This document shows, piece after piece, positions 31,185 through 36,156 of a stretch of 64,000 bases of DNA; positions within the stretch are counted from its first letter, which is position 1; each line of letters begins with the position of its first letter. The translations under genes were made by a program, and so were the position numbers. Source of the stretch: Rhodospirillaceae bacterium (lineage in GTDB: Bacteria; Pseudomonadota; Alphaproteobacteria; UBA8366; Aestuariispiraceae). Under the pieces are notes generated by a model. That model did not search any database, was not told the DNA's origin, and saw only the letters and a program-made list of their open reading frames with translations. The stretch spans positions 294,448-358,447 of the forward strand of contig PAQY01000002.1 in the NCBI GenBank assembly GCA_002709955.1, read 5' to 3'.

Positions 31185-32120
31185 ATGAATCTGCGGGATC
31201 TGAGTTATTTTTGCGCCGTTGCTGAAACCAGCCATTTTGGCAGGGCAGCCGAGCGCTGCCATGTCAGCCAACCAACATTATCCGCCCAGATCAAAAAACT
31301 GGAGGATGAGCTGGGCGTCACATTGTTTGAGCGCAGCAACAAATCTGTGCGACTGACGGCGGTTGGTCAGGAAATCCTGTTGATCGCACATCGCGTTCAG
31401 GAAGGGGCTGCAGATATACGCAGGGCTGCCATGGCGCATAGTGACCCCCTGGCTGGCAAGATCAAACTGGGGATCATTCCCACCATTGCCCCGATGATCA
31501 TCCCCAGCCTGTTGGCGATGACGGGTCGCAAATTTCCGGCCCTGCACCTGTCCTTTGTGGAGGATATGACAGACCCCCTGGAGGATATGCTGAGGTCCGG
31601 CGCGTTGGATGCGGCCATTCTGGCGACCGATCCTATGCATTCCACGCTTGAAGAAATTCCCCTGTATGATGAACCATTCTGGGCGGCTTTCCCAAAGGGG
31701 CATCGCCTGGCGCAAAAATCCCACCTGGTCGCGATGGATATCGACCCGCAGGAATTGCTGTTGTTGAGCGAGGGGCATTGTTTTCGCGATCAGGCGCTGA
31801 GTGTGTGCAGGCATGCCGTGTCGCAGAATGCGGCACAGGCCGATACGCGCGCCACAAGCATGGAAACGATCCTGAATCTTGTTGCGGCGGGGGCAGGGGT
31901 CACCCTGATCCCGGCCCTGGCCACTCAGGGGGGACGTCTTGCGGAAACCGGTGTGATCGCGCGTCCCTTTACAAAATCACCGCGCGGGGAAGGGGCGTCG
32001 CGCCGGGTTCGATTGGTGTTTCGGCGCACAAGCCCCCGCTTGCAGCTTATGCTGGCCTTGTCCGAGGCGATCACAGACGACTTGCCCCCCCTTGTTCATG
32101 CGGTGCCAAAAGAAGAATAG
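31185..32120 (+). CDS. oxyR: Hydrogen-peroxide-sensing LysR regulator OxyR
   Basis: 311 aa. LysR-type HTH at about 3-60 (MNLRDLSYFCAVAETSHFGR, CHVSQPTLSAQIKKLE). The redox cysteines are Cys199 and Cys208 (EGHCFRDQALSVCRH), at the same positions as in E. coli OxyR, so disulfide switching is expected. TSMETILNLVAAGAGVTLIPAL is the typical C-terminal effector-domain block. It is divergent from katA with a matching OxyR site 13 bp upstream of its own start. Confidence 0.95.
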   Translation: MNLRDLSYFCAVAETSHFGRAAERCHVSQPTLSAQIKKLEDELGVTLFERSNKSVRLTAVGQEILLIAHRVQEGAADIRRAAMAHSDPLAGKIKLGIIPTIAPMIIPSLLAMTGRKFPALHLSFVEDMTDPLEDMLRSGALDAAILATDPMHSTLEEIPLYDEPFWAAFPKGHRLAQKSHLVAMDIDPQELLLLSEGHCFRDQALSVCRHAVSQNAAQADTRATSMETILNLVAAGAGVTLIPALATQGGRLAETGVIARPFTKSPRGEGASRRVRLVFRRTSPRLQLMLALSEAITDDLPPLVHAVPKEE

Positions 32121-32193: not shown

Positions 32194-33573
32194 ATGATGC
32201 GAGACCGTGTATCGACCTTTTTATTCTTGGGTATTGCCGTTTTTACGGTGCTGGGGGAACTGACAGAAATTGGCTGGTTCCGGGACACGGCTGTTGTTTC
32301 TGTGTTGTTATTGCTGGTTCTGGAATTTACGCGCATCCCCCTGATACAAAAAAGCGTGGGGATCGTCCTGATCCTGGGCGGAGTGATCACCGCCGCCTTT
32401 ACCGATGATATATTTGGCACGCTGTATACAGGCATTGTTCGGGCTTTGCCTTTCCTGCTGCTTTTTGCCTCCGTCGCATGGCTGCAGGAACCGTCTTCCC
32501 AAAGTCCGTCCTTGTTGGCCGTGCGCGAAATGGTGATGCGCCAGGGACCGGGCAAACGGTTTGCCTGGGTGATGACGGTCGCCCATTTTCTGGGGGTTGC
32601 ATTTAATCTGGCGGGGTTGTCCCTGTTGACGCCAATGGTTGCCAAAGGGGCCGTGGCGCGCCTGCAAAAGCGACTGAGCCGGGCGATGATTCAGGGGTTT
32701 TCCGCAGGCACATGCTGGTCACCGCTCTATGTCGGAACGGCGGTTATCATTGCTTCTGTTCCTGGGGTGAACTGGCTGGATGTGGGCCCCACTGGCTTTG
32801 TTATCGCCATGGCAATGCTGGTCTGGAGCTGGATCGTGGATCGGCTGTTTTCCCGCCGGAAACAGCCGCACGTGATCCCGACCCCCATCGCCCTGGACTC
32901 ACCCGACCATCCAATGACTGGCTTGGTCTGGATCAAACTGGCAATGATTTTGATCACGCTGTTTGGCTGCATCATTGGTATGGTTGAAGGATTGGGATGG
33001 TCCATTCCCATCGCATTGGCGGTCACCGCGCCGCTTTATGCCATGATCTGGGCCTTCTTTATCGGGCGCAGCGGCAGCGGGTCTGGCCTGTTGGGGACGG
33101 CCCGGCATGTGTTTCGGGGATTGCCCGGCTTGCGCGGGGAAACCATCCTGTTTACCGGGGCCAATCTGTTGGGTGTTGGCGTGGCGGCCTTGATACCCGA
33201 TGGATCCGCCGGGTCTGTCATGGCCGATTGGGCCATTCCGTCTGAAATCATCCTGTTGGCGATTATGGTGGGGTATGCGGTTGCCAGCGCGGTTGGCCTG
33301 CATCCGGTGGTCACGGTGGTGCTGGTAACAACAATCCTGACGCCGACAGTGATTGGTGTTCCGCCCGCCTTGCTGGCGCTGTCCCTAATGGTGATGTGGG
33401 GGCAGGGCACGAATGTTTCCCCATTCTCTGCGACCAATCTGTATATGGCGCGGGTGACGGGGCAAAGCGCCTGGGTCACGGCGTGGCGCTGGAACCTGCC
33501 CTTTGTTGTTTCATCGACCCTGTTATTGGCGGGGACGATGATCGTCTTGCTGGATAGCGGCTGGGGACTGTAA
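32194..33573 (+). CDS. Polytopic membrane protein, transporter-like, substrate unknown
   Basis: 459 aa with about 11-12 hydrophobic helices. Repeated helix-hairpin features such as GFSAGTCWSPLYVGTAVIIA and, near the C-terminus, LMVMWGQGTNVSPFSATNLYMARVTG look like the re-entrant substrate loops of ion-transporter-superfamily (DASS/CitM-like) carriers. This likeness is by eye only. No recognisable ribosome site precedes the ATG. The next genes, on the other strand, encode an M24 peptidase and diaminopropionate ammonia-lyase, so an amino-acid-related substrate is conceivable but unproven. Confidence 0.7.
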   Translation: MMRDRVSTFLFLGIAVFTVLGELTEIGWFRDTAVVSVLLLLVLEFTRIPLIQKSVGIVLILGGVITAAFTDDIFGTLYTGIVRALPFLLLFASVAWLQEPSSQSPSLLAVREMVMRQGPGKRFAWVMTVAHFLGVAFNLAGLSLLTPMVAKGAVARLQKRLSRAMIQGFSAGTCWSPLYVGTAVIIASVPGVNWLDVGPTGFVIAMAMLVWSWIVDRLFSRRKQPHVIPTPIALDSPDHPMTGLVWIKLAMILITLFGCIIGMVEGLGWSIPIALAVTAPLYAMIWAFFIGRSGSGSGLLGTARHVFRGLPGLRGETILFTGANLLGVGVAALIPDGSAGSVMADWAIPSEIILLAIMVGYAVASAVGLHPVVTVVLVTTILTPTVIGVPPALLALSLMVMWGQGTNVSPFSATNLYMARVTGQSAWVTAWRWNLPFVVSSTLLLAGTMIVLLDSGWGL

Positions 33574-33588
33574 GGGGGCCGAGGACGG

Positions 33589-34755
33589 CTACAGGATTGG
33601 CAGTGTCGGGCTGGCGCGGCGGGTCAGGAATTCCGGACCGGATTCGCGGATGACGATGTTTTCCTCATGCACCATCACCAGACCCGGCGCAAAGGTCATG
33701 CCGGGTTCCAATGTCATCACCATATTGGGTTTCAGCACCGTCTGATCCTGGGGCGTGTTTGACGGCCATTCGGTCAGTTGCATGCCCAATCCATGGCCCA
33801 GGCGTCCCACATCATTGCCCAGGGCCCCGGCCTTTGTCATCACATCCTGCATGGCGTGAAACAAATCGGCACAGGTTGCCCCGACCTTTGCTGCGGCAAA
33901 ACCGGCTTCTGTTGCGGCATAAACGGTTTCATAGGCCCGCTTTGCCTGATCATTGGCATGACCAAAGGCATAATTCCGGTCAAAGTCACAGAAATAGCCG
34001 TCAAACAGGCATCCGGTATCCAGGATCAGGACATCGCCCTGTGTGATGCGCCGTTCCCGCGGTGGGGAGATGATGTCGCCATAGCCACCCTGGCCGGCAC
34101 CGCCAACCAGATAGGATACGTCATCCACACCCTGTTCCAGGCATTTGATTTTGAAGGTGCGGAAAACCTCAATCTCACTCATCCCCGCATGGATAAAATT
34201 GGGCAGGTCGTCAAACACATCCGACACCAGACCACAGATATGGGCGATCTTGGCAATCTCAGCATCCGATTTCACCATGCGTAGGTCGCGCAGAATCGGG
34301 CTGCAATCGCGTGTGGCGATGCCGGGCAACAGGGTCATCATGCGGCGATAGTCTGATACCGGCATGCGCAGATGGGTCTCTGGCCCTTCGGAAATTCCCA
34401 GAACGCCGCCTGTGCCCAGGACCTCTTGCAATGTTTCCACCAGCAGGCTGATGCCTTCATCATGGGGCTGTGGGGACGACCAGGTGCGGATGTCTTCAAT
34501 CCAGGTGCGCCCCATACAGGCCGCTCCGATGGTCGGGATCACCGCGATGGGTTTCCCGCTGGCGGGAACGACCAGGAACCAGGGGCGGGTGGGGCTCTGC
34601 CAGAATTGCGTCAGATAGCCACTGAAATAGCGCAGTTCAACTTCTGTCGTCAGCAGCAATGCGTCAATGCCAGCATCGGCCATTCGATCCTGTGCGCGTC
34701 TGGTGCGCTGTTCAAATTCCTGGGCCGGGAAACCGCGCGCTGGCACCTCAGCCAT
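33589..34755 (-). CDS. M24 (creatinase/aminopeptidase P-like) metallohydrolase
   Basis: 388 aa. A creatinase-type N-terminal domain (about 10-150) precedes a pita-bread M24 domain. All five metal ligands are visible: Asp in LILDTG, Asp in FCDFDRNYAFG, His in GRLGHGLGMQLTEWPS, Glu in MTLEPGM and Glu in VHEENIV. Relatives include Xaa-Pro peptidases, creatinase and ectoine hydrolase, so the natural substrate may be a small amide and not a peptide. It overlaps the upstream diaminopropionate ammonia-lyase gene by 8 nt, indicating a coupled degradative pair. Confidence 0.87.
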   Translation of the reverse strand: MAEVPARGFPAQEFEQRTRRAQDRMADAGIDALLLTTEVELRYFSGYLTQFWQSPTRPWFLVVPASGKPIAVIPTIGAACMGRTWIEDIRTWSSPQPHDEGISLLVETLQEVLGTGGVLGISEGPETHLRMPVSDYRRMMTLLPGIATRDCSPILRDLRMVKSDAEIAKIAHICGLVSDVFDDLPNFIHAGMSEIEVFRTFKIKCLEQGVDDVSYLVGGAGQGGYGDIISPPRERRITQGDVLILDTGCLFDGYFCDFDRNYAFGHANDQAKRAYETVYAATEAGFAAAKVGATCADLFHAMQDVMTKAGALGNDVGRLGHGLGMQLTEWPSNTPQDQTVLKPNMVMTLEPGMTFAPGLVMVHEENIVIRESGPEFLTRRASPTLPIL

Positions 34756-35977
34756 GCCAGGGCTCCATCAAGGCATCATCCCTGTCAGAAGGCGCATCAA
34801 TAATGGCCTTATAGATCGCAGGGTCCGTTGCACCTTCACACCCAAATACCAGGACAGTGCTGTCTGGCCCTAAATCCAGTCGGTCGCGCAGATCTTTTCT
34901 GCTGGCCATGCCGATTGCGCCCAGCAGGCCGGGGACCGCCGATTCGCCAGCAATGATTTCGCCCCCACCCGCCGTGCCCGATGCCAGCAGGCGCATGGCC
35001 GGGCCAATGCCGTCTTCGCCGATGGTGATAAAATCACTGGCCCCTTGGGACAGGATATCCCAGGCCAACAGCGAAACCTCGCCGCAAGACAAACCGGCCA
35101 TGATCGTTTCTTCCGTGATCTCAACGGTCATGGGTTTGTCCTGTCGCGCACTTTCCAGGACACAGGCGGCGCGGGTCGGCTCTACGATAATGACCCGGGG
35201 CTTGTCGTTCCCCATGCTGTGCCAGAAACGGGCGCAGATTGCTGCGGCCAGGCCACCAACGCCAGCTTGCAGAAAGACATGACTTGGGCGTTTCCCCTCC
35301 AATTGCTGAAGGATTTCAGTTGCCATAACGCTGTAGCCCGCCATGACGTGGCGCGGTAAATTCATATAGCCAGGATAGGATGTGTCAGACACGATGAACC
35401 AATGATTGGTTTTCGCTTCATCGGCGCACACTTTCAACGAGTCATCATAATCGCCCGAAATACGGATAACGGTTGCGCCAAAGGCTTCCATCGCCTGTTT
35501 TCGTCCCTCGCTGACACCCGCATGGATATAGATACGACAGGCGCATCCGGCCATTTGGGCACCCCATGCGACGGAGCGTCCGTGATTGCCATCCGTCGCG
35601 GTGACAACCGTCAATTCTGATAGGGCGGTGCTGTGTTGTCCGGCGCGAATGTCAGAAAGGGGGGCCTTTTTCCCGGTTTTCGCCTCAATCTGTGTCGCAG
35701 CCAACCGCAGAACGGCATAGGCTCCGCCCAATGCCTTAAAGCTGCCCAAGCCCAGCCGGGTGCTTTCGTCCTTGTAATACACCGCACCAACAGACAGAGA
35801 CTTCGCCAATGCGTCCAGATTGCGCAGTGGGGTTGGCTGATAGGCGGGCCAGGATGAAATCTCAGCATATGCCGCCTTTGCCATGGCGGGTGACAGAATC
35901 TCGTTCAGGGCTTCCGGATAGGGGCCGGACAATGTCGCACGCCCGAAATGGTCCACAACAATATCTGAATTTTGCAT
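34748..35977 (-). CDS. dpaL: Diaminopropionate ammonia-lyase
   Basis: 409 aa from ATG 35977; a longer frame to 36040 adds residues without family support. It is a fold-type II PLP enzyme that converts 2,3-diaminopropionate to pyruvate and two ammonia. The Schiff-base Lys lies in LGLGSFKALGGAYAV. The phosphate-binding and substrate loops are ATDGNHGRSVAWGAQ and GVGGLAAAI; GYMNLPRHVMAGYSVMATEI is characteristic of DpaL. Threonine dehydratase-like relatives are the alternative. Its 3' end overlaps the M24 hydrolase gene, which could release its substrate from an amide. Confidence 0.88.
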   Translation of the reverse strand: MQNSDIVVDHFGRATLSGPYPEALNEILSPAMAKAAYAEISSWPAYQPTPLRNLDALAKSLSVGAVYYKDESTRLGLGSFKALGGAYAVLRLAATQIEAKTGKKAPLSDIRAGQHSTALSELTVVTATDGNHGRSVAWGAQMAGCACRIYIHAGVSEGRKQAMEAFGATVIRISGDYDDSLKVCADEAKTNHWFIVSDTSYPGYMNLPRHVMAGYSVMATEILQQLEGKRPSHVFLQAGVGGLAAAICARFWHSMGNDKPRVIIVEPTRAACVLESARQDKPMTVEITEETIMAGLSCGEVSLLAWDILSQGASDFITIGEDGIGPAMRLLASGTAGGGEIIAGESAVPGLLGAIGMASRKDLRDRLDLGPDSTVLVFGCEGATDPAIYKAIIDAPSDRDDALMEPWHG

Positions 35978-36082
35978 ATACCTGGGCCCCCAACTGACTG
36001 TGTGGTGGGTACCGTGATACGCACAGGTCGACCCTGTCAAGGCAAGGGGGCTGATTTACTTGGATTATTTTGTTGGAGAATT

Positions 36083-36156
36083 TGGAGGCGCGGAGCGGAA
36101 TCGAACCGCTGTAAACGGATTTGCAATCCGGTGTATCACCACTCTACCACCGCGCC
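36083..36156 (-). tRNA. tRNA-Cys (anticodon GCA)
   Basis: 74 nt on the minus strand with encoded CCA. The acceptor stem GGCGCGG/CCGCGCC is fully paired, the D-arm is TGGTAGAGTGG, the anticodon loop is TTGCAAA and the T-arm is GGTTCGATTCC. Confidence 0.95.

Follow-up and report, generated by a model that had tools for sequence, protein, structure and literature searches.

The window analysed here is a stretch of 64,000 nucleotides of contig PAQY01000002.1 from a Rhodospirillaceae bacterium. It contains overlapping genes for a diaminopropionate ammonia-lyase (DAL) and an M24 metallohydrolase, on which the gene for a membrane protein converges. We conclude that the lyase and the hydrolase probably form the core of a catabolic module that would free 2,3-diaminopropionate (DAP) from an imported, blocked derivative, putatively of the N-acyl, carbamoyl or cyclic class, and then destroy it. 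The two genes are linked, their active sites are conserved and the pairing recurs with distantly related DALs. The membrane protein is tied to the pair only weakly.

The window locus

The DAL gene (protein P0001, 409 residues; 34748–35977, minus strand) encodes a fold-type II pyridoxal 5′-phosphate (PLP) enzyme and begins with an ATG codon, a TTG at 36040 being a possible longer start. Its end overlaps the start of the M24 gene (P0002, 388 residues; 33589–34755, minus strand) by 8 bp (34748–34755), so that translational coupling is possible; the identical overlap is found at two other loci, L029 and L030. The third gene (P0003, 459 residues; 32194–33573, plus strand) encodes a polytopic membrane protein whose family is unclassified, a putative transporter, and is separated from the M24 stop by a convergent gap of 15 bp (33574–33588). 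The three-gene layout described in the first-pass annotation of this DNA is thus real.

Assignment of the lyase

P0001 passes the NCBIfam model for diaminopropionate ammonia-lyase, NF006058, with 471.3 bits against a cut-off of 276, as well as TIGR01747 (285 bits, cut-off 274), and falls below the cut-off of TIGR03528, the model for YgeX-type enzymes (315.1 bits against 532.25). It is therefore assigned to the DAL family but not to the YgeX type. Lys81, Asp129 and Asp198 correspond to K77, D120 and D189 in an alignment with the Escherichia coli DAL structure 4d9g; we take these, in that numbering, to be the PLP-binding lysine and two active-site aspartates. The TDGNHGR motif is present, although its aspartate is no strict mark of a DAL, being absent from the dpaL product of Vibrio described below. 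Judged by just its family score and these residues, P0001 would prefer DAP over serine or threonine. The shortfall against the strict TIGR03528 cut-off might be taken to mean that the enzyme is a serine/threonine dehydratase-like protein misnamed as a DAL; we consider this very improbable, as the best non-DAL family in the NCBIfam scan reaches only 87 bits against 471, and both the motif and Asp198 are kept.

The M24 hydrolase

P0002 has the creatinase fold of Xaa-Pro peptidase-like proteins, with matches to PF00557 (Peptidase_M24, 133.6 bits) and PF01321 (Creatinase_N, 53.8 bits). Asp246, Asp257, His321, Glu350 and Glu364/365 provide a complete set of dimetal ligands as in prolidases, and the five ligands are invariant in all 61 aligned sequences of the P0002 type, which were picked by hand from the 81 available, mostly by dropping near-duplicates. 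The structure was predicted with a mean local confidence (pLDDT) of 95.2. Comparison of the model with EutD (6yo9) using VIA-align gives a Z-score of 41.0 and a root-mean-square deviation (rmsd) of 2.3 for 373 aligned residues, and comparison with the Xaa-Pro dipeptidase 5cde gives 40.7 and 2.2 for 368; the predicted fold is equally close to EutD and to prolidase.

The ectoine hydrolase EutD was considered as an identity for the M24 protein and rejected. P0002 scores 55.6 bits against a cut-off of 613 with the ectoine hydrolase model TIGR02993; it is 21–23% identical to four EutDs, all four of which carry E, P, Y and M at the positions of Asp246, Asp257, His321 and Glu350. Because the protein retains metal ligands missing from EutD, and because the genome encodes a separate EutD, we conclude that it is not an ectoine hydrolase. 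It might instead be an ordinary prolidase-type dipeptidase or aminopeptidase, in which case the unit would salvage DAP-containing peptides or amides. The complete dimetal site and the similarity to 5cde are in keeping with this, as is the best NCBIfam match, PepQ (NF040821); that match, however, amounts to 101 bits against an equivalog cut-off of 630, the structural comparison ties with EutD, and the importers in the module operons examined are of small-solute types, the caveat being an oligopeptide-type ATP-binding cassette (ABC) transporter set near the M24 gene, on the opposite strand, at locus L060. A plain peptidase is, in our judgement, an improbable identity.

Recurrence of the pair and its partners

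The pair was followed in 39 genomes, that of the window (G000) included, with an M24 orthologue scored at a chosen threshold of at least 380 bits and a DAL at E ≤ 1e-30. The M24 gene is present in 24 genomes and a DAL in 20: both occur in 16, the M24 gene only in 8, a DAL only in 4 and neither in 11. The lyase gene adjoins the M24 gene in 12 of the 24 M24-bearing genomes, a variant lyase with the motif SAGNHG accounting for two of the 12 (G001 and G008). A wider survey took in 80 of 103 confirmed M24 loci, with genes clustered and recounted by tblastn; many of these loci are from Leisingera or Ruegeria and are not independent. Here a DAL-family lyase is adjacent on the same strand at 40 loci (29 TDGNHG, 11 SAGNHG), an EutA-like isomerase is adjacent at 46, both are at 27, and an M20 deacylase gene is found no farther than 2.3 kb away, on the same strand, at 23. 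On these adjacencies the proposal in the first-pass annotation of a breakdown unit stands for the DAL and the M24 enzyme, though not for a transporter as its third member.

The DAL–M24 unit recurs in Alpha- and Gammaproteobacteria and in one metagenome-assembled genome of the Desulfuromonadales, with a divergently arranged version in Arthrobacter. Genomes of the same family as that of the window (G003, G005, G006, G009 and G010) have M20–DAL–M24–EutA-like operons, with an Lrp gene beside four of the five, and the order DAL–Lrp–EutA–M20–TRAP–M24, TRAP being a tripartite ATP-independent periplasmic transporter, is found in Neptunomonas (L083) and on a Photobacterium plasmid. The EutA-like and M20 proteins of the modules are relatives rather than members of the named families, since they score below the respective cut-offs: 202 bits (L045) and 162 bits (L050) against 318 for the EutA model TIGR02990, and 313 against 550 for the M20 protein of one locus with the DoeB2 model. 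The EutA cut-off is passed in none of the 39 genomes, the EutA of the canonical operon in G009 itself reaching only 241 bits. A tree was built from 50 EutA-like proteins (13 near-duplicates having been dropped from 53 clustered and 10 others added). In it the module EutAs of G003, G005, G006, G009 and Neptunomonas lie with both canonical EutAs on one side of a split with 99/99 support, and 38 proteins, including that of the window genome, lie on the other side.

Several of the findings weigh against the module as we have drawn it. The M24 and DAL genes are moderately associated across the 39 genomes (Fisher p 0.022, kinship ignored), and in 8 of the 24 genomes with the M24 gene no DAL was matched at 1e-30. 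Neither a lyase nor an EutA-like gene is adjacent at 21 of the 80 loci, a few of which are cut by contig ends; some of the 21, such as L074 and L083, hold the genes farther off. In the genome of the window the EutA-like gene (G000:C6:13340–14038; 214 bits, cut-off 318) and the DoeB2-like M20 gene (G000:C6:195615–196703; 346 bits, cut-off 550) are unlinked to the pair. Moreover, the three SAGNHG lyases scanned fall just below the DAL cut-off (242, 250 and 264 bits against 276), and on an Aminobacter plasmid (L211:8156–12658) genes for an EutA-like protein, an M24 protein, an M20 protein and an ABC importer are accompanied by one for a cystathionine β-lyase, with no DAL annotated in that stretch. 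In view of these last two observations, the product in some members may be another β-substituted alanine, and in the Aminobacter case lyases may have been swapped to suit the leaving group. As the Vibrio dpaL product itself is without the motif aspartate, lyases with SAGNHG may be DALs too.

Other genes were seen near members of the M24 family. A gene for a Rieske-type oxygenase lies directly upstream of the DAL–M24 pair at L040:4213–5508, L047:2–1426 and L102:1530–3008, family scores being weak for that of L040. At L088:9938–16230, and also at L094, L101 and L104, the module precedes four genes for an ABC importer, judged by eye to be of polyamine type, and a second, different M24 gene. At L032, L033, L036 and L038, where no DAL is in the locus, M24 and EutA-like genes stand beside genes that look by eye like LolC/LolD, together with a divergent permease-like gene lacking an NCBIfam match.

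Distant DALs with the same M24 family

The case for DAP as the common product derives from independent, distant DAL lineages that pair with the same M24 family. The dpaL product on a plasmid of Vibrio cortegadensis is only 34% identical to P0001 and exceeds the strict TIGR03528 cut-off (565 bits against 532); dpaL and a RidA gene are divergent from genes for the M24 protein, a transporter annotated as belonging to the betaine/choline/carnitine transporter (BCCT) family (TIGR00842, 398 bits, cut-off 408) and an M20 protein. The Arthrobacter DAL, 33% identical to P0001, passes NF006058 (300 bits against 276); its gene, beside that of an ArgE/DapE deacylase, is divergent from an M24–EutA-like–Na:Ala symporter set. 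A third type of DAL, 41–42% identical to P0001, is found on rhizobial plasmids in the arrangement Lrp/DAL–M24–ABC importer–Zn hydrolase, and the Zn hydrolase scanned, that of L213, belongs to the hydantoinase/carbamoylase family. Fourteen of 29 M24-bearing plasmid records were viewed, one of them unannotated. On the 13 annotated plasmids a DAL gene is directly beside the M24 gene in seven (once as two coding sequences), one gene away in one and elsewhere within the cluster in two; the remainder have a SAGNHG lyase (one), a cystathionine β-lyase (one) or no lyase (one).

N-deacylases, of the M20 and carbamoylase types, and importers often join the pair, and release of DAP from a derivative fits for this reason. 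A DAP derivative, the substrate put forward in the first-pass annotation, is likely; the part there given to the transporter is conjectural. On the rhizobial plasmids L212, L213 and L219, which are from nodule or legume isolates, no more than about 8 kb separates the DAL–M24 pair from nitrile hydratase genes; L219 is the plasmid whose DAL is annotated as two coding sequences. It is conceivable that the rhizobial modules are linked to plant β-cyanoalanine or oxalyl-DAP (ODAP), the latter as a substrate being a guess (PMC5372542).

Ectoine-type surroundings

Some of the modules have an ectoine-like setting. The TRAP binding protein of the Neptunomonas locus L083 has as its nearest structures 3gyy, 3fxb and 2vpn (E about 1e-60), presumably TeaA/UehA, and a binding protein 73% identical to it is encoded in Ruegeria (L059) beside a SAGNHG lyase and an Lrp–M20–M24–EutA-like set. 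L074 combines an Ehu-type ABC importer (EhuA 395.8 bits, above 345.4; EhuB 169, below 191) with EutA-like, DAL and M20 genes, and the importers on plasmids L214 and L216 are annotated as ectoine-type, that of L214 as EhuBCDA. No ectoine-type importer was found in the window. Directly upstream of the module at L079 are eutB, eutC (EutC 454 bits, cut-off 472), Lrp, Ssd-like and Atf-like genes; at L069 the M24 gene is followed by that of an EutE relative (373 bits, cut-off 403), and at L094 a EutD gene (601 bits, cut-off 613) is nearby.

EutD homologues scoring 480 bits or more are present in 31 of the 36 module genomes tested, drawn from the 80 loci, and exceed the cut-off of 613 in 14; one of 14 control genomes gave a match, and none a match above the cut-off. 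Among the 39 genomes, with EutD counted at 500 bits or more, 19 have both M24 and EutD genes, 5 the M24 gene only, 1 the EutD gene only and 14 neither; the association (Fisher 1e-5, kinship ignored) partly follows kinship. Five module-bearing genomes (L201–L205) have EutD, with no EutE match in the stretch fetched, and the module M20 protein could replace the missing deacetylase there.

This setting is what would be expected if the module were a side branch of ectoine or 5-hydroxyectoine breakdown, with the lyase acting on 3-hydroxy-2,4-diaminobutyrate (4-aminothreonine) or a related intermediate rather than on DAP. The frequency of EutD in module genomes, the ectoine-type importers and the eut genes at L079 and L069 all favour such a branch. 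Set against them, the window genome already has EutD (680 bits, above 613) at G000:C6, with EutE (538, above 403) and Ssd- and Atf-like genes, and on another contig EutB (464, above 413) with an EutC relative (445, cut-off 472). In the Arthrobacter genome, which has M24, EutA-like and DAL genes, no EutD was matched at 1e-40; the Vibrio lyase passes the strict DAL cut-off; and EutD is reported to open hydroxyectoine itself in the accessible part of PMC13188858, which with that of PMC5924519 is our source for EutD chemistry. Overall, we consider the ectoine branch unlikely and prefer a DAP derivative as the substrate.

The membrane protein and its neighbours

P0003 is strongly hydrophobic. Neither Pfam nor NCBIfam yields a family for it at E 0.001, and a search with it and 20 of the 34 homologues found returned just stray weak matches to those collections, none convincing. 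A profile of the family finds no solved relative in the PDB at E 10, and an AlphaFold2 prediction from three near-identical sequences is unusable (mean pLDDT 34). In a class-wide sample, matches to P0003 at 1e-15 occur in 27 of 385 genomes, mostly at 24–30% identity (loci L141–L168).

The first-pass annotation made the three genes an uptake and breakdown trio, and for the transporter this co-occurrence fails. A close homologue (at least 372 bits) is present in 6 of the 39 genomes, in addition to a fragment that G013 has at the edge of a contig, against 24 for the M24 gene; the complete trio is confined to G000, G002 and G004, that is, 3 of the 24 M24-bearing genomes and one genus, the membrane-protein gene of G002 being split across two contigs. 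Two of the 80 M24 loci, L029 and L030, have a P0003 homologue.

The gene may instead belong with its other neighbour. It starts 73 bp downstream, on the same strand, of a gene for an OxyR-like LysR regulator (31185–32120, plus strand; PRK11151 OxyR 241 bits, below the cut-off of 329), so that co-transcription is possible, and it would then merely adjoin the DAL–M24 pair. The restricted distribution of the gene is consistent with this, as are the homologues in G008, G231, G323 and G345, which have no adjoining DAL or M24 gene; the last three are among the nearest in the class-wide sample. Importers are frequent in other modules, however, and in G003 and G005, of the genus of the window genome, the orthologue likewise faces, at the same genomic place, a convergent gene derived from a DAL. 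We regard the chances that P0003 stands outside the unit as evenly balanced; such an arrangement is compatible with the function proposed for the DAL and M24 enzymes. On the other side of the locus, a tRNA-Cys gene (36083–36156, minus strand) lies just upstream of the DAL gene, outside the module.

At this place in G003 and G005 the M24 gene is absent, and the locus is flanked on one side by homologues of the PIMT, TolC, PopZ and valine-tRNA ligase genes of the window. The DAL copy beside the transporter is without the PLP lysine, having arginine in G003 and glutamine in G005. The DAL-derived genes of these two sister species, at L114:8011–9237 and L115:7450–8556 in the position syntenic with the window, are still open reading frames. 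Between G003 and G005 the lysine-less copies are 41% identical, compared with 81–92% for the flanking proteins compared, 81% for the membrane protein and 75% for the other DAL; the copy therefore appears to be decaying or repurposed. Both genomes hold an M20–DAL–M24–EutA-like operon elsewhere, with an Lrp gene beside it in G003. The membrane protein has thus been kept beside a failing DAL, by which a shared role is neither proven nor excluded.

Proposed route and significance

Reading the gene content as a pathway, we propose the following reactions, in an order that is likewise conjectural. The blocked compound would enter through an importer, of the ectoine-type TRAP or ABC, BCCT or amino-acid ABC kind in relatives and possibly P0003 here. 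Where an EutA-like isomerase is present, epimerisation may follow. The dimetal M24 enzyme would then hydrolyse the compound, the candidate cuts being of a ring (as by EutD), an amide or a peptide bond, and an M20-class deacylase could remove any leftover N-acyl group. DAL would convert the DAP by α,β-elimination to 2-aminoacrylate and ammonia, and 2-aminoacrylate would give pyruvate and a second ammonia, through RidA or spontaneously. In the window genome, the unlinked EutA-like and M20 genes would presumably take part.

A more specific proposal, which we put forward as a doubtful one, is that the module degrades a natural, DAP-based lower homologue of ectoine, namely an imidazoline carboxylate with a five-membered ring, as in DHMICA, or else the open, N-acetylated form of that homologue. 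The module would then have relatives of the same ectoine-like design, the family exchanging its terminal PLP lyase (DAL, dehydratase-like lyase or cystathionine β-lyase) to suit the β-heteroatom of the alanine released. DHMICA has been called a synthetic ectoine analogue.

The module is widespread among bacteria and little described. Individual module genes are already annotated in public records, and the accessible portions of the literature on DAL, on DAP, ODAP and β-N-methylamino-L-alanine (BMAA) and on ectoine and hydroxyectoine breakdown yielded no account of a DAL–M24 module. In the available text of PMC4417242, a table for Neorhizobium galegae lists, uncommented, a DAL in the vicinity of genes for hippurate hydrolase and L-PSP; that of PMC9414260 holds nothing decisive on BMAA as a substrate. 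Beyond its recently described role in the anaerobic breakdown of urate, DAL probably has a second physiological context, in bacteria that are marine or associated with plants. The module implies that blocked DAP compounds form a pool so far unrecognised, and it suggests a second use of the ectoine-catabolic layout, for a different solute; in that case, genomes annotated solely by their likeness to EutA or to ectoine importers may have been misread.

Comparison with known systems

Three known systems invite comparison. In the reductive urate pathway of E. coli, YgeY (M20) and YgeX (DAL) convert albizziin to pyruvate (PMC12507026, in the part available). There DAL turns the DAP delivered by N-deblocking hydrolases into pyruvate and ammonia, a demonstrated parallel to what we propose for the module. 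The urate pathway differs in being an anaerobic purine route with XdhD, YgfK, SsnA, HyuA and YgeW, for which that part of the paper names no M24 or EutA-like gene, and the window lyase lies below the cut-off of the YgeX-type model. With the prolidases (Xaa-Pro dipeptidases, M24B), P0002 shares the fold and the complete dimetal site; it differs from them in scoring far below the PepQ and PepP equivalog cut-offs, and M24 proteins of its type often partner amino-acid lyases, an isomerase and N-deacylases.

The closest likeness in layout is to the ectoine/5-hydroxyectoine catabolic operon, which comprises uehABC or ehuABCD, eutABCDE, asnC, ssd and atf, with DoeA, DoeB and DoeB2 as further enzymes. 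An EutA-type isomerase, an M24 hydrolase and a relative of the N-acyl-diamino-acid deacylase recur together in the modules, as they do in that operon, along with a PLP-dependent eliminating enzyme and an Lrp/AsnC-type regulator; some modules have Tea/Ueh or Ehu importers, and some of their EutA-like proteins fall on the canonical side of the 99/99 split. In contrast, the module has DAL in place of EutB/EutC and the diaminobutyrate transaminase, its M24 protein is far from the EutDs in sequence and keeps its metal ligands, and its deacylase is M20-type and below the DoeB2 cut-off; the two systems coexist in the 31 of 36 genomes noted above. The module can be described as a catabolic operon that follows the pattern of ectoine breakdown with DAL as the lyase, and since the M24 ligands are kept and EutD is encoded separately, it resembles an ectoine layout rebuilt around an M24 enzyme that depends on metal.

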